A stretch of DNA of 64,000 nt, taken from positions 3,782,001-3,846,000 of the forward strand of contig NZ_CP151726.1 of the NCBI RefSeq assembly GCF_038443385.1. Reading direction: 5' to 3'. This document shows, one piece after another, positions 50,673-58,074 of the stretch. Each line of letters begins with the position of its first letter. Position 1 is the first letter of the stretch. The stretch comes from Stieleria varia. GTDB lineage: Bacteria > Planctomycetota > Planctomycetia > Pirellulales > Pirellulaceae. The notes under the pieces are model-generated. The model worked only from the letters and a program-made list of their open reading frames with translations. It did not search any database and had not been told where the DNA came from. A program made the translations under genes and the position numbers.

Positions 50673-51539
50673 TTATGAGCCAGAAACCAGAAATGACAGG
50701 ACGGCGTCGGCTAGCGCGTTTTCACTTGCGTCATCAAATCGGACGAACATGGGAAAGGAATTGATTTCTAGGAAGACCGGGGCCGACATGCCGTTGCGGC
50801 AGCGAAAGTCCAGAGCGCAGTAGTCAAACTGCAGTTTCCCAGCGAGTCGGTGAGTCGGTTCGATGACAGAGAGCGGGACATCGACCTGAACCACGTCGAC
50901 TTGGACATCATCGCGGTAGTCCAATTCGTCGGTGATCAGATGGAAACAAAACAGGTTGCCATCGATCGAAAACACACGCAAGTTTTCTCCATCGAGCTTT
51001 TCTTGAACAAACTGAGGATTCAGTTCGGACAAGGCATTCGTGTCGTTGGCGATCGAATCGACGGATCGAGTGTGAGCGCCGCCGCCCAGCGGTTTGATCA
51101 CATGGCGGTCACCGCAGGGCATCTTGGCCAGTGGCGTGGCGTTGCCCAAAACGAAGGTGTCCGGGATCACAAAACCGGCGTGAATCGCGTGCCTCAGGTT
51201 GGCTGATTTGTTGTTCGCATCCGTCATCGACGCGCGATTGAGAATGCGGATCTCCGGCCAAGCCAGCGCAAAGGACTGCACCACGTCGAACGCGGCAAGG
51301 TTCTTTGACGCGTCACCATCGAACACGTTGTATCGCAAGAAAATACTTTTCGGCGCGACACGTTGATCACCGAGGTCGATCGCCGGCGCGTGAAAATCCC
51401 ATGCGATTTGGCACGCGTCGTCGCGGTCCGTGTCCCAGAACAGATAGTCGATGCCCCGCAAGTGCGCTTGATCGACGATTCGCTGTGTGTTGGGATCCGA
51501 GTCGCCTCCGACGATCAACAATGGCGTCTCGACTACCAC
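50673..51539 (-). CDS. ATP-grasp ligase, probable graspetide ester synthetase
   Basis: 288 residues from GTG 51539. It resembles RimK/MvdC-MvdD-type ATP-grasp enzymes that form side-chain ester or amide bonds in RiPP precursors. N-terminal pre-ATP-grasp fold: LLIVGGDSDPNTQRIVDQAHLRGIDYLFWDTD. ATP-binding motifs: RHVIKPLGGGAHTRSV (about 155-170), FVQEKLDGENLRVFSIDG, and DYCALDFRCRNGMSAPVFLEINSFPMFVRFD, whose Asp/Glu-x-Asn would bind Mg. The frame stays open to 51833 but that part lies inside the precursor gene in another frame and is Arg/His-rich nonsense. The GTG overlaps the precursor TAG by a few bases, implying translational coupling. It is inferred to cross-link Thr and Glu side chains of the TTxxxGEE cores encoded just upstream. 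Confidence 0.82.
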   Translation of the reverse strand: MVVETPLLIVGGDSDPNTQRIVDQAHLRGIDYLFWDTDRDDACQIAWDFHAPAIDLGDQRVAPKSIFLRYNVFDGDASKNLAAFDVVQSFALAWPEIRILNRASMTDANNKSANLRHAIHAGFVIPDTFVLGNATPLAKMPCGDRHVIKPLGGGAHTRSVDSIANDTNALSELNPQFVQEKLDGENLRVFSIDGNLFCFHLITDELDYRDDVQVDVVQVDVPLSVIEPTHRLAGKLQFDYCALDFRCRNGMSAPVFLEINSFPMFVRFDDASENALADAVLSFLVSGS

Positions 51540-52264
51540 CGTCGAAAACCTTTCCAGATGTTGGGAGCTTTCTCGATGACTCGCGACCGCAATCCTTGTG
51601 GCGTTTGGAAAGTTGGCAACCCCGGTCGGCCTGGACGCGGATTGCCTTCTTCGCCAACGGCTCGAGTGGTGATGTTCTGTTGCGGATGGGGATTTTCCTC
51701 GCCAACGGCATGAGTGGTCACCGAGCCTTCCTCTCCAATCGCCCGCGTCGTGGGGTTGCCTTCTTCGCCGACCATCAACGTCGTCGCGGTGGGTGGCGGC
51801 GTTGGAACCGGCTGTGGCCTGGGTGTCGGGCAATACTGTTCTTCACCAACCGCTTGAGTGGTCGGCTGGGGCGGTCGTGGTGACTCTTCGCCCACCGCAT
51901 AAGTGGTGACTTGCGGTGGCGGCGGTGTCGCTTCTTCACCCCAAGTGTTCGTGGTGGGAGTCGGACTCGGCGAGCCTTCCTCGCCCACGGCCAACGTCGT
52001 TGGGTTGTTGCTCGGCGGGTAGTAAGGCTGTGGTGGTTGAGGAAGCGGTTGTGGGGTGGGACCACTGCCTTCTTCGCCGACGGCCATCGTGGTCATGCGG
52101 TTGTCTTGCGCCTCAGCATTGGTTTGTGCCAGCAGAGCGTAGGCGGTCGCCGAGGTGAGCCCCGTGGCGACAACGCGACGCAGGAAATCTCGTCTGGGCA
52201 AGTCCCCTTTTTTCAGATCGTTGATCAGTGAATCGACCTGAGGATTCGATTTTGGCTGAGACAT
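51533..52264 (-). CDS. Multi-core graspetide-like precursor with Tat-type leader
   Basis: 243 residues. Residues 1-54 look like a Tat leader: an N-terminal extension QVDSLINDLKKGDL, PRRDFLRR (23-30), a hydrophobic stretch VVATGLTSATAYALLA (31-46) and an AxA-like site (NAEAQD, 49-54). From residue 58 there are nine octapeptides TTxxxGEE at 58, 89, 104, 120, 135, 161, 172, 183 and 199, spaced by Pro-rich linkers; eight read TTx(A/M)(V/I)GEE and one TTNTWGEE. The TTxxxxEE core is the hallmark of plesiocin-type graspetides, in which an ATP-grasp enzyme joins Thr hydroxyls to Glu carboxylates. The last 37 residues are basic (GLRSRVIEKAPNIWKGFRRW). GCGAGGGA lies about 9 bases before the ATG. The next gene on the strand is the ATP-grasp ligase. 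The graspetide role is inference from motif and context. Confidence 0.82.
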   Translation of the reverse strand: MSQPKSNPQVDSLINDLKKGDLPRRDFLRRVVATGLTSATAYALLAQTNAEAQDNRMTTMAVGEEGSGPTPQPLPQPPQPYYPPSNNPTTLAVGEEGSPSPTPTTNTWGEEATPPPPQVTTYAVGEESPRPPQPTTQAVGEEQYCPTPRPQPVPTPPPTATTLMVGEEGNPTTRAIGEEGSVTTHAVGEENPHPQQNITTRAVGEEGNPRPGRPGLPTFQTPQGLRSRVIEKAPNIWKGFRRW

Positions 52265-52320: not shown

Positions 52321-52356
52321 CAAAAACCTCGCACCGATGATCGATGCGAGGATCTG
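52321..52356 (-). terminator. Intrinsic terminator of the secreted 176-aa protein gene
   Basis: On the minus strand cctcgca, a loop of about 11 bases, tgcgagg and then ttttt form a classic Rho-independent terminator 18 bp after the stop codon at 52375. It separates that gene from the graspetide operon, which must then have its own promoter in 52265-52320. Confidence 0.8.
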
Positions 52357-52374: not shown

Positions 52375-52905
52375 TTAGCGTTGAAAGAAGCGTCGCATCG
52401 GTTGGACGCCGGTGCTGTAGGTCGGATAAACCGGGTTGTAGTTATTCATTCGATTGTCGATCGCTTCTGCGGAAGAGCTGCCGTACTGTTGGAACGTACT
52501 GGTGTTGGCGTCCGCACCGGCTTGAGCCCAGTATCCGTTGGCGACCGCATTGCTGTTGCTACGAGCGAATCCTTGGTAGGTGCGAGCGGTCGAATTGGCG
52601 ACCGACTGAGCACCCCAGCCGTTGGCGATGGATCGACCGTTGCTGATTGCGACTCCGCCGTGGGAGATCGCAGTGCTGTTACCGCGGGCGAAACCGCCGT
52701 TGGTGCCTTGACCATACATGTTGGCCCGAGCGTATCCTCCTTGGGTGGCGACGGCAGTTGCGTTCAGTTGCGTGTTGCCGTATCCACGAGCCGTGCTGAT
52801 GGCGGTTCCGCCTGTCGAATAGCTCGACGCGGTGACTTGAGCATTCGCTTCTGCGGTCAGCAAGCAGACGGCGGCCAGGGCGATGGTGGTGATGATGCGG
52901 TTCAT
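52375..52905 (-). CDS. Secreted Gly/Ala/Asn-rich repetitive protein
   Basis: 176 residues: signal peptide RIITTIALAAVCLLTAEANA (about 3-22), then a low-complexity part rich in Gly, Ala, Asn, Ser and Tyr with imprecise repeats (GGYARANMYGQGTNGGFARGN; AISHGGVAISNGRSIANGW; GFARSNSNAVANGYWAQ), ending in PMRRFFQR. Shares ISHGGV and an Arg/Phe-rich C-terminal tail with the protein at 53823-54419, so the two look paralogous. Such composition suits a beta-solenoid or fibre-forming surface protein. No recognised family. An upstream motif shared with the paralogue is listed separately. Confidence 0.7.
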   Translation of the reverse strand: MNRIITTIALAAVCLLTAEANAQVTASSYSTGGTAISTARGYGNTQLNATAVATQGGYARANMYGQGTNGGFARGNSTAISHGGVAISNGRSIANGWGAQSVANSTARTYQGFARSNSNAVANGYWAQAGADANTSTFQQYGSSSAEAIDNRMNNYNPVYPTYSTGVQPMRRFFQR

Positions 52906-53033: not shown

Positions 53034-53714
53034 TCACTGACCGATGGCCTGCCGCACCTTTTGCTTGGCATCGATCGAGAGCGCGCAGGCATCGAGTTGG
53101 TGCAGGATTTCTTGCGGCGTACCGGCAAACCGAATGGGCTCGGGTGAAGCGTCAGGATCGGACATCTCAATCGAAATCTGATCACCGACCCGACTGACCG
53201 AGAAAGACTGGTTTCCGGTGGCGTACGCTGAAACGCCGACTCCGCCGGCTGGCCACGCCGATATTTGTGGCACTGGGATTTGCGGAATCGTCCTTTGCGG
53301 TGAATGAGTGGTGTAGGGAAACCAACGACGCATGTTCTGTCGTGGTGTCAGCAGCAGCGGCTGGCCATTTCGGAGGACGCTGACCATCGAGTTTTCTGCT
53401 GCTGGAGGCAGGACCGCGGCGATAGGCAGGCCGTCGATTTCCAATAGCAGATCGTTTGGCTGAAGCCCCAGTCGTGCGGCAGGGCTCTGAGGCTCGACCT
53501 CGCGGATCCAGATGCCGCAATCCGGAGGAATTCCGGGAAGGTGCAGGCGGAGTATTTGTGGGATCGGGCGTGTCGAGATTCCCCAAGGGGCGTTCTGCTG
53601 CACGGCAGCAGGTCGCGATGGCGGTTGCACTGCATCGGGTTCTTGGCCGATCGCGGTGGTGGCTCCGAACAAAAGCATCGCTGCCAAGGAGAATCGTGTG
53701 ATCTGTTTCTTCAT
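53034..53714 (-). CDS. Secreted PDZ-domain protein
   Basis: 226 residues from ATG 53714 (the frame extends to 53786 without a signal sequence; the Lys-rich start MKKQITRF begins the signal peptide, SLAAMLLFGATTAIG). A PDZ-like domain occupies about 65-135: CGIWIREVEPQSPAARLGLQPNDLLLEIDGLPI, as in HtrA/C-terminal protease PDZ units, but no protease domain is present. The C-terminal part (SVSRVGDQISIEMSDPDASPEP; TPQEILHQLDACAL) is unrecognised. It lies between the two repetitive secreted proteins, so it may bind their C-termini; that is speculation. Confidence 0.75.
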   Translation of the reverse strand: MKKQITRFSLAAMLLFGATTAIGQEPDAVQPPSRPAAVQQNAPWGISTRPIPQILRLHLPGIPPDCGIWIREVEPQSPAARLGLQPNDLLLEIDGLPIAAVLPPAAENSMVSVLRNGQPLLLTPRQNMRRWFPYTTHSPQRTIPQIPVPQISAWPAGGVGVSAYATGNQSFSVSRVGDQISIEMSDPDASPEPIRFAGTPQEILHQLDACALSIDAKQKVRQAIGQ

Positions 53715-53765
53715 CGTTTTTTTCCGTGAATGTGAAAAAGAGAGTCGGGAAAGTGGACGCGCGCA

Positions 53766-53805
53766 AAAGTACGCCTGCTCCCGCATCAGTGGCGGCAGCA
53801 GGCGT
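53766..53805 (-). terminator. Terminator-like hairpin after the Gly-rich protein gene
   Basis: On the minus strand acgcctgctgccgc (53805-53792) pairs with gcgggagcaggcgt (53784-53771), 13 of 14 positions, followed by acttttgc. Located 18 bp after the stop at 53823. Confidence 0.65.
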
Positions 53806-53822: not shown

Positions 53823-54419
53823 TCAGCGGCGAAAGATCATTCGGGCGACGGGTGCCGTGGAGCGAAAGCCGCCCCGATTGTTGTTGTTGCTGAAGCCCCC
53901 GTTTCCGTAGGCCGAACCGTACGGGACCGTACCGTTGTTGAACTGCCGCGTGTGGCTCTTGGAGTACGCTCGGGTGTTTTGTCCAAAGCCGGACGATTCA
54001 CTGCCGCCCCAGACCTGTCCGTTCTGAATTCCCGTCTGACCTCCAGAAATCACGCGGCGATTGCCTCCTTCGCTGACCACACCACCGTGGCTGATGTGGG
54101 TTCCGTTGGGACCGATGTTCAGGTTCAGGTTGTGGGCTGCCCCCAAAGGTCCTCCGCCCGCTCCGATGGTGTTCGAGATCGCGATGCCTTGGGGGCCGGC
54201 ACCGACGGCAAAACCATGTCCGAAACCCAGCCCGTTTTTGTTGCTGCTGCGTGAGCGTGCGAACTGGAATTGTCCCTCGGCATTGGCTCCGGCCCCGACG
54301 GCACCTGGGCCGATGTCGACCCAAGATCCAGCTCCTTGTGCGCCCGCTTGGGGGGCAGACAAAGTGATTGTGACGGCCAACAGGGCAGCGACTGAAATCG
54401 TTTTCAGAATGGTTTTCAT
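53823..54419 (-). CDS. Secreted Gly/Asn-rich protein, paralogue of the 176-aa protein
   Basis: 198 residues with signal peptide TILKTISVAALLAVTITLSA (about 3-22, cleavage near GAQ). The mature part is Gly/Asn/Ser-rich (GPGAVGAGANAEGQFQFARSR, ISHGGVVSEGGNRRVISGGQ, SAYGNGGFSNNNNRGGF) and ends VARMIFRR, like the Arg/Phe-rich tail of the protein at 52375-52905. No recognised family; possibly a fibre or matrix component. The promoter motif at 54490-54524 lies upstream. It is divergent from the MDR oxidoreductase gene. Confidence 0.7.
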   Translation of the reverse strand: MKTILKTISVAALLAVTITLSAPQAGAQGAGSWVDIGPGAVGAGANAEGQFQFARSRSSNKNGLGFGHGFAVGAGPQGIAISNTIGAGGGPLGAAHNLNLNIGPNGTHISHGGVVSEGGNRRVISGGQTGIQNGQVWGGSESSGFGQNTRAYSKSHTRQFNNGTVPYGSAYGNGGFSNNNNRGGFRSTAPVARMIFRR

Positions 54420-55600: not shown

Positions 55601-56014
55601 TCGCAGTTCGACTCGTCGAGTCGAAAACGGAACATTGTCGTTCGACTCTCCGAGTCGAAAACGGGATCGAAGCGTTCGAGGTCAGACGATCTTTCGACCA
55701 TCCAACACGAACAAACAACGTCCAGGAGATCAGCATCCGTGTCTTGGGCGAGTAAACGTACGAGATGGTTCGGCCGTATGCCGCCGCACGCTAACGACTC
55801 GGAGAGTCGAGCGACTATCGTTCGACTCTCCGACTCGAATAAGAAATCGAAGGGTTTACGAGTAGAATCCAGTGACGCGGAGAAAATCCTGAAAATGTCA
55901 TGTGATTTCTGACAGATCCTTGTCTGCACCGTGAGTAGGACTGTTGAAGACGCCCATACAACAATGCTCGTACAGTCGTGACGTGTTCCCCTACTGTTGT
56001 CCAGATGTTGCTCA
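55601..56014. repeat. Intergenic cgactct-gagtcg palindromes
   Basis: Short palindromes occur at 55606-55625 (ttcgactcgtcgagtcgaaa), 55640-55662 (ttcgactctccgagtcgaaa) and 55797-55845 (gactcggagagtcgagcgac, ttcgactctccgactcgaa). These belong to the family at 14472 and 23838. The remainder, before the sigma factor gene, has nothing recognised. Confidence 0.75.
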
Positions 56015-56620
56015 ATGACCACCCCTGAGACACGACCGAGCCTGTTGTTGCGAATCCGTGATCCGCAGGACCGCATCGCCTGGGCGGAGTTTTCGGCATT
56101 GTATCGACCGGTGGTTTGCAACATGGCGCGACACCAAGGAATGCAAGCAGCCGATGCGGAGGACTTGGCACAACACGTCATGCTGTCCGTCTCCCGAGCG
56201 ATCGAGAATTTTGACCCTGAGAGCGGACAAGCACGCTTTGGCACTTGGTTAAAAACCATCGCCCGCCGCGCCATCATCAACGCTCTGACGCGTGGGTTTG
56301 CCGATCGGGCCGCGGGTGGCAGCGACATGATGGATTGGTTGCACCAGCAACCCGAATGCAATCAGCAGACGCAGACGTTGATGTTGCAATATCGCAGAGA
56401 AGTCTTTGCGGTCGCCGCATCGCAAATTCGATCGGAGTTCTCCGCCGACACTTGGGACGCGTTTTGGCAAACAGTCGTTCAGGATCAGCCGGTGGACTCA
56501 GTGGCGGAGTCACTGAAACGCACACGAGGGAGCGTCTACACCGCGCGGAGTCGGGTGATGAGACGACTTCGTGAAAAAGTGCGTGAGTTGGACTTGAATT
56601 CGGAGCAAGATGAATCATGA
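56015..56620 (+). CDS. ECF-type RNA polymerase sigma factor
   Basis: 201 residues from ATG 56015 (MTTPETRPSLLLRIRDPQDRIAW). Region 2: FSALYRPVVCNMARHQGMQAADAEDLAQHVMLSVSRAIENFDPESG, then FGTWLKTIARRAIIN. Region 4: AFWQTVVQDQPVDSVAESLKRTRGSVYTARSRVMRRLREKVREL. This matches planctomycete ECF sigma factors linked to protein kinases. Its TGA overlaps the ATG of the kinase gene (ATGA), so the two are coupled and the kinase probably controls the sigma factor. No matching promoter was identified. Confidence 0.9.
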   Translation: MTTPETRPSLLLRIRDPQDRIAWAEFSALYRPVVCNMARHQGMQAADAEDLAQHVMLSVSRAIENFDPESGQARFGTWLKTIARRAIINALTRGFADRAAGGSDMMDWLHQQPECNQQTQTLMLQYRREVFAVAASQIRSEFSADTWDAFWQTVVQDQPVDSVAESLKRTRGSVYTARSRVMRRLREKVRELDLNSEQDES

Positions 56621-58074
56621 ACCCTCAGAAAATGAACGCTCCCAACACGGCTTGCATGTTCGATCGCATCGACGAGTTCTTGAATGGCGATTTGTCGACA
56701 TCCGATTTGGCGTCCTTTGAACAACATCTGGAAACGTGCCACGTTTGCGGCGACCGCTTGGCCTTCCGCGCAGCCGATTGCGAGTTCTGGGAGGACGCGA
56801 AGACTTTTTTGAGCGATAACGATGTTCCGTTGGAGCCCACGCAAGAAACGGCTGCGGCTTGTCGCGATGATGACCAAGGCGACAAAGACGCTTTGTATGA
56901 TGCGACCAAGTTGACCTTTCTGGATCCCACGGATGATCCCGACATGCTGGGGCGATTCGCCGGTTATGAAATTTGCGGCGTCGTGGGGAGCGGTGGGATG
57001 GGCGTGGTGATGAAAGGACGCGACGTGTCACTGGATCGGTTCGTCGCCATCAAAGTCTTGCATTCGAGCTATGCCTGCCAGTCGGCACCTCGAAAACGTT
57101 TTGCTCGCGAAGCACAAGCGGCGGCGGCGGTGTTACATGACAACGTGATTTCGATCTACGGGGTGGATCACTGGAACGAGATGCCTTACTTGGTCATGCC
57201 TTATGTGAAGGGTGAATCGTTGCAGCAGCGAATCGATCGAGCAGCACCGTTGCCCATCGATGACATCGTGGGAATCTCGCTTCAGATCGCCAGAGGCTTG
57301 GCCGCCGCACATGATCAAGGCCTCGTGCACCGTGACATCAAGCCCGCCAACATTCTGATGCCCTCCAGCGTCTCGCGGGTCATCATCACCGACTTTGGAT
57401 TGGCGAGAACGGCGGACGATGCAAGCTTGACTCGTAGCGGGGTGTTGGCCGGAACGCCTCAGTACATGTCGCCCGAGCAGGCGAGGGGCGAAGCCGTGGA
57501 TGGACGGACCGACTTGTTCAGTTTGGGCAGCCTGATGTACGCGATGGCTTGCGGTCGCCCGCCTTTCCGCGCCGAGACGCCCTACGGAGTGCTTCGCAAG
57601 ATCACCGACGAACCTCATCGTTCACTCACCGACATTCGTGAAGACACGCCCGTTTGGTTGTCCAAAATCATTGATCGGCTACTGCAAAAACGTCCTGACG
57701 ATCGATTTGCCAACGCTCATGAGTTGGCCGATCACTTGGAACATTGCTTGGCACATTTAAGGCAACCGGGAACTATCGAGCTGCCCATATTGGTGGAACA
57801 TCGGCCAGCGGTTCGAAAGGTCTGGCCATTCGTTGCCGTGTCATTGCTGCTCGGTATCTTTGGTCTGTTCGTGATGACTGGATCAAGTCCTCCCAGTACC
57901 ACAAATCCCGAGGTCACCCATCAAAGCGAATCGGGGGCATCTCTCGTTGAGTCCGCATCTCAAACGCGGAACGAGACTCCACCTGAGTTGCAATGGGAGT
58001 TTGACGACTCGCTGCTGGATCGACTGGAGACCGATCTGAACATTCTGCTCAACGAAACCGTTGCTGAAGAATGA
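56617..58074 (+). CDS. Ser/Thr kinase with anti-sigma-like zinc motif
   Basis: 485 residues, start overlapping the sigma factor stop. The N-terminus (DEFLNGDLSTSDLASFEQHLETCHVCGDRLA) has the HxxxCxxC pattern (His37, Cys41, Cys44) of ZAS anti-sigma domains. Hanks kinase domain about 113-385: GVVGSGGMGVVMKG, Lys in FVAIKVLHS, HRDIKPANILM, ITDFGLART and GTPQYMSPEQARG. One membrane helix at about 402-422 (WPFVAVSLLLGIFGLFVMTG) and a short Glu/Asp-rich tail. It therefore may sequester the sigma factor through the ZAS motif and release it on phosphorylation; inference from coupling and domains. Confidence 0.9.
   Translation: MNPQKMNAPNTACMFDRIDEFLNGDLSTSDLASFEQHLETCHVCGDRLAFRAADCEFWEDAKTFLSDNDVPLEPTQETAAACRDDDQGDKDALYDATKLTFLDPTDDPDMLGRFAGYEICGVVGSGGMGVVMKGRDVSLDRFVAIKVLHSSYACQSAPRKRFAREAQAAAAVLHDNVISIYGVDHWNEMPYLVMPYVKGESLQQRIDRAAPLPIDDIVGISLQIARGLAAAHDQGLVHRDIKPANILMPSSVSRVIITDFGLARTADDASLTRSGVLAGTPQYMSPEQARGEAVDGRTDLFSLGSLMYAMACGRPPFRAETPYGVLRKITDEPHRSLTDIREDTPVWLSKIIDRLLQKRPDDRFANAHELADHLEHCLAHLRQPGTIELPILVEHRPAVRKVWPFVAVSLLLGIFGLFVMTGSSPPSTTNPEVTHQSESGASLVESASQTRNETPPELQWEFDDSLLDRLETDLNILLNETVAEE

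Follow-up and report, generated by a model that had tools for sequence, protein, structure and literature searches.

A predicted graspetide system with plesiocin-like repeated cores and a Tat-type signal in Stieleria varia

In our study, a two-gene unit of Stieleria varia has been analysed which lies in a 64,000-nucleotide stretch of contig NZ_CP151726.1 (positions 3,782,001 to 3,846,000; this whole stretch is called the window). The unit is strongly indicated to be a graspetide system, in which an ATP-grasp ligase is predicted to cross-link the side chains of a repeat-rich precursor. With guarded confidence, we favour the view that the product is cross-linked in the cytoplasm, exported through the twin-arginine translocation (Tat) pathway and employed as a multi-headed protease inhibitor; here the Tat export is likely from the sequence, and a protease is the inferred target. 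A wider proposal is put forward only tentatively, namely that the locus may represent a class of ribosomally synthesised and post-translationally modified peptides (RiPPs) with a twin-arginine signal as the leader, whose members would be cross-linked in the cytoplasm, exported by Tat, act as 6-12-headed inhibitors diversifying at P1 and be kept genus-wide. The features of the unit are as follows (window coordinates).

51533..52264 (-): putative graspetide precursor, 243 residues, with Tat-type signal, nine TTxxxGEE, proline-rich linkers and WKGFRRW tail
50673..51539 (-): putative ATP-grasp graspetide synthetase, 288 residues, begins at a GTG that overlaps the stop of the precursor
52109..52264 (-): predicted Tat-type signal, residues 1-52, A-E-A end before Q53
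52181..52195 (-): twin-arginine motif RRDFL, residues 24-28
52070..52093 (-): core 1, TTMAVGEE
51977..52000 (-): core 2, TTLAVGEE
51932..51955 (-): core 3, TTNTWGEE
51884..51907 (-): core 4, TTYAVGEE
51839..51862 (-): core 5, TTQAVGEE
51830..51832 (-): sole Cys of the precursor (C145), in the linker just past core 5
51761..51784 (-): core 6, TTLMVGEE
51728..51751 (-): core 7, TTRAIGEE
51695..51718 (-): core 8, TTHAVGEE
51647..51670 (-): core 9, TTRAVGEE
51536..51556 (-): conserved C-terminal tail WKGFRRW

An earlier note on this DNA had described a precursor gene with nine TTxxxGEE octapeptides, followed with overlapping stop and start by a single ATP-grasp ligase gene, in a planctomycete. The interval given in that note (50673-52264) agrees with the extent of the two genes, and the count is exactly nine in the open reading frame (ORF) at 51533-52264. 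The ligase gene extends from its GTG start at 51539 to a stop codon at 50673-50675, so that 7 nt (51533-51539) are common to both genes, and the named relatives of the locus are planctomycetes. On shuffling the precursor residues (20,000 shuffles), a maximum of 2 TTxxxxEE motifs was obtained as against the nine TTxxxGEE of the real precursor, and T[TS]xxxxEE found zero matches in any other stop-to-stop frame of the window. The codons for the repeated T, T, G, E and E vary synonymously from core to core, thus the cores are not a simple DNA repetition; it is the protein sequence of the repeats that is maintained. Against the own genome the pattern GGNGARGARNNN proved far too loose, matching 586 times forward and 568 times in reverse, and the precursors used as queries against PDB gave no matches.

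The ATP-grasp ligase and its relatives

The ligase is encoded once in its own 9.72-Mb genome. A close ligase was found in 16 of the 199 sampled genomes of the family Pirellulaceae, the own genome included, and some match at E<=0.001 in 19, three of which have distant matches only. Within the genus, 13 of 14 genomes carry it, and in a sample of the phylum 9 of 392 genomes match at E<=1e-6, the best besides the own one (2e-21) covering part of the model. Named relatives are Stieleria tagensis, S. sedimenti, Roseiconus nitratireducens, two Rhodopirellula strains, the strains K23_9 and TBK1r and a metagenome-assembled planctomycete. In the phylogenetic tree, the 16 Pirellulaceae ligases form one clade (100/100) on a long stem (2.9).

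In a single-sequence phmmer search, the best PDB match of the ligase was 7drm (E 8.7e-12, 48.3 bits), which appears in the PDB table as an ATP-grasp domain-containing protein and which we take to be PsnB, the plesiocin synthetase. A profile of the 16 ligase relatives matched six distinct PDB sequences at E<=0.01, again with 7drm as the best (5.4e-17). The other five are 7m4s (AMdnB), 7mgv (CdnC), 5ig8 and 5ig9 (ATP grasp ligase, presumably microviridin ligases) and 9bou (named as MvdD-like pre-ATP grasp protein), all of them peptide-cross-linking ATP-grasp ligases, to judge by their names or from general background. The earlier note had staked its proposal on the ligase not falling in an unrelated ATP-grasp family, and the profile matches bear it out. 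The NCBIfam peptide-maturase models TIGR04187 and TIGR04185 match all 16 ligases, below their curated cut-offs. The residues K149, P150, G153, G154, D244, E258 and N260 are invariant in the 16 ligases, and the K, D, E and N among them align to 7drm.

The ligase is thus homologous to graspetide synthetases, and at all 16 loci it has an adjacent precursor in which Thr/Ser/Lys donor residues precede Glu/Asp acceptors in conserved spacing. The precursors carry TTxxxxEE repeats, which we take to be the core motif of plesiocin (graspetide group 2). Since the nearest solved relative is PsnB and the ATP-grasp residues are kept, the locus is read as a graspetide system with plesiocin-like cores. The similarity to PsnB seems far too weak, at the 48.3 bits and E of 8.7e-12 given above, for the two to share one cluster of the published similarity network at an alignment score of 70. 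The label plesiocin-type, used in the earlier note, describes the core and not a close enzyme kinship, because the ligase is only distantly related to PsnB.

Core evolution, predicted export signal and proposed mechanism

Homologous TTxxxGEE precursors, which the earlier note had advised looking for, were found, one with 6-12 cores adjoining each of the 16 close ligases. Plesiocin is tetravalent with two esters per repeat (PMC12291112), in agreement with the four repeats that the earlier note had given for it. Nine, which that note called unusually many, is mid-range in the own family. Nine cores are not the oddest feature of the system; the Tat-type signal, the conserved tail and a hypervariable core position all go beyond what the earlier note had seen. 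One relative (L037) shows a recent expansion, with four of its cores repeated as units that are identical or nearly so.

The hypervariable position is x1, the residue after the second Thr. Over 144 cores, collected with a pattern in which G was fixed and S/T and D/E were allowed elsewhere, the entropy of x1 was 3.38 bits as compared to 0.82 for x2 and 2.22 for x3. As many as 15 different residues occur at x1, and L, Y, R, M, F and K make up 102 of the 144. T2, E7 and E8 were invariant although the pattern allowed S and D, and when x4 was left free Gly was again the only residue at that position in these precursors. In a comparison of six close relatives, which uses non-independent pairs, x1 differs in 77/141 aligned core pairs (54.6%), as against 10/141 (7.1%) for x2, 17/141 (12.1%) for x3, 8/141 for T1 and 462/1508 aligned pairs (30.6%) for the linkers. 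T2, G, E and E showed 0% differences while their codons differ in 17-33% of pairs, thus these residues are held by selection. The proportion of non-synonymous differences (pN) is highest of all classes at x1 (0.359 vs 0.180 in linkers).

A hypervariable residue at this place is what a canonical inhibitor would have, and by analogy x1 is inferred to be the reactive-site residue. In microviridin J the residue after the ester-forming Thr fills the S1 pocket of trypsin, and in microviridin L placing L, R, Y or M at the same position shifted or strengthened the inhibition of elastase, trypsin, chymotrypsin or subtilisin (PMC7823629).

Between the cores lie linkers of 3 to 42 residues with 24-42% Pro, which differ in sequence. 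In 8 of 15 precursors a linker Cys stands shortly past a core, a possible dimerisation or attachment point. At the other end of the scale is the C-terminus, a basic tryptophan tail: [GR]RW ends all 16 precursors and FRRW 15 of them, and the last 12 residues differ in only 5/180 aligned pairs among the six close relatives. The conservation of FRRW as a by-product of the overlap with the ligase start was considered and rejected, as the first start codons in relatives are at varied distances, mostly downstream.

The N-terminus could be compared in 15 precursors, the sixteenth being cut by a contig end. All 15 carry RR.[FL]L at residues 23-36 (search pattern RR.[FGAVML][LITMVF]) and A-x-A 3-9 residues ahead of the first core. 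The predicted export signal thereby takes the place of the ordinary leader usual in peptides of this kind. An uncharged stretch of at least 13 residues follows the twin-arginine motif in 10 of the 15 and reaches 20 residues in the window protein. A simple Tat rule, consisting of the motif, 13 uncharged residues and a cleavage site, was applied to 346 ORFs of the examined loci. It was passed by 6/15 pooled GEE precursor ORFs, a pool in which two loci are counted twice, vs 7/331 other ORFs; of these seven, five resemble ordinary Tat substrates on inspection by eye, and one gene accounts for three of the five through its orthologues. The own genome encodes TatC, and a search of it with the signal region returned the region itself and two chance-level matches (E 0.45 and 0.78).

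A second family of the class also joins GEE cores to a Tat-like motif. A search of 170 of its genomes gave matches in 73, and among 30 loci examined with about 1.5 kb on each side, cores were found only at L058, L059 and L060. Here the precursors adjoin related ligases and their leader starts with MQHPF[SED]G, followed by a twin-arginine motif. The tree is compatible both with a sister position of this family to the Pirellulaceae clade and with another placing, and so with either one or two origins of the Tat fusion. GEE cores are also present at a further locus, L061, where the precursor carries no Tat motif. At L060 (2480-3595, -), two GEE-core arrays flank a non-repeat part with no Pfam match at E<=0.1, so that putative graspetide cores appear to decorate a protein.

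The following mechanism is put forward. In every TTxxxGEE core the ligase would link the side chains of Thr and Glu, giving a bicyclic hairpin with up to two esters per core and, by arithmetic, up to 18 in total. The N-terminal twin-arginine signal would then direct the cross-linked product to Tat export. Tat carries folded proteins, and such a signal would let the export wait until the product is folded. Signal peptidase I would cut after A-x-A, a few residues ahead of the first core, so that no dedicated leader protease or exporter would be needed. The mature chain would be a string of heads on proline-rich linkers which blocks several serine-type proteases, the target of each head being set by x1.

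Several points weigh against this reading. The window precursor is without the leader motif Phhx(1,2)h, which leaves its recognition by the ligase unexplained; a loose PAVDxI occurs in 6/15 relatives, a PFF-like sequence in none, and the MQHPF of the second family misses the motif too. The motif is present in about 50% of graspetide precursors (PMC8939145), and since it is not universal its absence is not excluding. The ligase-binding element may be the signal region, the tail or both. The tail is possible because the graspetide synthetase ThfB still works with its leader moved to the C-terminus (PMC13003496). As to the signal, the uncharged stretch is only 12 residues long in 3/15 precursors and is broken by Lys or Arg after 2-3 residues in L051 and L065; being short of 13 residues in 5/15, it lowers the odds of Tat export slightly. 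Curated Tat models match weakly (TIGR02811 in 8/15, best 0.016; TIGR01409 in 2/15; PF10518 in 1/15), none near its cut-off, so that Tat is called from the pattern and from how well it is conserved. These models seem to have little sensitivity here, as PF10518 reaches 0.11 for a DUF1552 protein of the window whose start is Tat-like. In the second family, L058 is frame-broken between signal and cores, and in L060 a charged residue comes soon after the motif. The pN to synonymous ratio (pN/pS) is 0.53 at x1 and 1.29 at x3 (few synonymous changes); x1 changes fast, which is not proof of positive selection. Nine GE[END] sites in 8/15 precursors are without the T-T pattern and are decayed or unlike cores, left uncounted. 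Lastly, the P1 role is transferred from microviridin and not from plesiocin itself.

Distribution, neighbouring genes and alternative readings

Upstream of the precursor, on the same strand, lie three genes (A, B and C) and a hairpin.

53823..54419 (-): neighbour A, secreted-type protein of 198 aa without a Pfam match (E<=1)
53034..53786 (-): neighbour B, PDZ-domain protein (PF17820, 1.1e-8)
52375..52905 (-): neighbour C, secreted-type protein of 176 aa without a Pfam match (E<=1)
52327..52351 (-): terminator-like hairpin between C and the precursor, 11-bp stem and T run, pattern match

HtrA-type protease models match B over the PDZ stretch only. In the family sample A was found in 33/199 and C in 36/199 genomes, both of them in all 16 with the close ligase. 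Around the 15 relatives, A and C were each found in 12 of the stretches compared and B in 10, some of these stretches being cut by contig ends. The precursor-ligase pair of G151 sits on a contig other than that of A and C, with none of A, B or C close to it. The hairpin suggests that precursor and ligase form their own unit, keeping in mind that terminator-like sites are no commoner than chance (3 in the region vs a mean of 5.3 in shuffles). A five-gene operon A-B-C-precursor-ligase is weakened by the hairpin after C and by the G151 pair standing alone. On the same two grounds, the minimal unit is probably two genes, with A to C as frequent companions.

Some further observations were made on the neighbourhood. 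A and C recur together in several Pirellulaceae genera, with or without the graspetide. Several of their orthologues end in basic-aromatic tails (RRGW, RMFGR) reminiscent of the FRRW of the precursor; a loose rule for such a tail is met by 54/301 ORFs, a number swelled by many copies of A, C or the precursor. An ECF (extracytoplasmic function) sigma factor gene is near the ligase in 12/15 relatives, whereas the window showed no homologue of this gene. At window 55997-58074 (+) a sigma-70-type factor overlaps a Ser/Thr kinase with a zf-HC2 motif, on the strand opposite to the cluster. No exporter, leader protease or NHLM-type transporter was recognised among the 11 window proteins scanned (45.2-58.1 kb), the neighbours of the relatives being compared by BLAST only.

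The occurrence of A and C bears on the nature of the product. It is unlikely, though worth considering, that the product serves at the cell surface as a structural or adhesive protein, whose cross-linked hairpins stiffen a proline-rich extracellular rod acting together with A and C and which inhibits no protease. A and C, which would fit a matrix role equally well, are present in every genome with the close ligase, and this counts in its favour and against the inhibitor; the high Pro content of the linkers, their Cys residues and the occurrence in 13/14 genus genomes, which suits a core trait better than a sporadic metabolite, agree with it too. However, 17 genomes have A and 20 have C although they lack the close ligase, the G151 pair stands on a separate contig, and the hypervariability of x1 with its P1-type residues would stay unexplained.

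Slightly less probable again is that the RR segment is only a ligase-binding leader resembling a Tat signal, the product staying inside or leaving in another way. Besides the weak curated models and the five precursors with short uncharged stretches, it can appeal to an h-region which is unusually conserved for a signal (invariant V32, G35, S38, A41, Y42 and L45). On the other side are the A-x-A placed shortly before the first core in 15/15, the outcome of the simple Tat rule, and the second family, where GEE cores and a Tat-like motif are joined to a different leader.

A polyprotein cut between the cores into about nine separate small graspetides appears improbable. Variable linkers with invariant cores do resemble a multi-core RiPP precursor, but the linkers are unlike in length and sequence, and no cleavage motif was noticed in them (none was searched for by program). 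Apart from the PDZ protein, the 11 scanned window proteins have no protease domain (relatives' neighbours were unscanned), and plesiocin and thuringinin are multivalent (PMC12291112). A RimK-type tail addition or other activity of the ligase, leaving the repeats unmodified, acidic and metal-binding, can be set aside as very improbable: RimK models match 13/16 ligases at E<=0.001, yet the peptide-maturase models match 16/16 with a best E of 1.1e-15 vs 6.5e-9 for RimK, no RimK is among the PDB profile matches, and Thr2 is as invariant as the Glu residues. The exported multi-headed inhibitor is hence retained as our preferred reading.

Other loci came to light in the same searches. At L062 (6335-7996, +) a planctomycete M43 metalloprotease (PF05572, 1.4e-15) with about seven C-terminal DDPxTLKF-type repeats lies just upstream of a graspetide-type ATP-grasp gene and may be a protease fused to a putative graspetide core array. 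L063 (7656-8195, -) and L047 (2265-2594, -) hold what may be another graspetide family of planctomycetes, in which acidic residues follow GTxTxT-type motifs, beside ATP-grasp genes. L025-L026 and L028-L030 have distant ATP-grasp homologues between two conserved genes, one of them AMP-forming-ligase-like by eye; no GEE cores were found at these five loci.

Comparison with known systems

In the papers searched on graspetides, on RiPPs with Tat signals and on Stieleria, no such system was seen in titles and abstract openings. The word twin-arginine is absent from the main text of two graspetide surveys, and the words RiPP and graspetide from a planctomycete metabolite review. The locus may well be among the 17,967 predicted clusters of PMC13097080, for instance in groups 34/35, which often have long repeat precursors.

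If our reading is true, the system joins RiPP side-chain cross-linking with Tat export and offers a natural test of whether Tat gates the release of a modified product. It would also be a genetically encoded multi-headed inhibitor scaffold, in whose 144 natural cores 15 different residues stand at x1. For microviridins and plesiocin, both the role in ecology and the native target have been called elusive (PMC9826346). A single-copy system in nearly every genome of the genus, several named strains included, makes the question of a native role testable.

The plesiocin pair (PsnA/PsnB) comes from Plesiocystis pacifica. It shares with the present system the repeated cores of TTxxxxEE type, a single ATP-grasp ligase and, in PsnB, the nearest solved relative. 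Plesiocin has four cores as compared to nine here (6-12 in the family), and PsnB has 334 residues whereas the present ligase is shorter (288) and distant. The NHLM transporter is common in graspetide group 2 (PMC13097080); none was present among the scanned window proteins, and a Tat-type signal and a C-terminal tail are found instead.

Microviridins, including AMdnA, resemble the system in ester formation by ATP-grasp enzymes and in having the S1-pocket residue directly after the ester Thr; AMdnA, a multi-core microviridin, has three cores (PMC7823629, PMC5934393). They differ in the core motif, in the PFFARFL leader and in the additional ligase that makes the lactam. Corallotide (CorA, graspetide group 15) is similar in its large precursor, with five repeated modified motifs (PMC13097080), and differs in its Lys-Asp isopeptide, its hydroxylation and its enzymes. 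A parallel for the signal is provided by the bufferins and oxazolins, RiPPs made by MNIO enzymes, in which a signal peptide replaces the typical leader, a feature called highly unusual for bacterial RiPPs (PMC12452194). Their signal is however Sec and not Tat, and the MNIO enzymes perform Cys chemistry with no ATP-grasp esters. The same MNIO survey points out that a RiPP precursor bearing a Sec signal has to be kept by some means from leaving too early (PMC12452194), and a Tat leader, if our reading is true, would be an answer to how export waits for modification.

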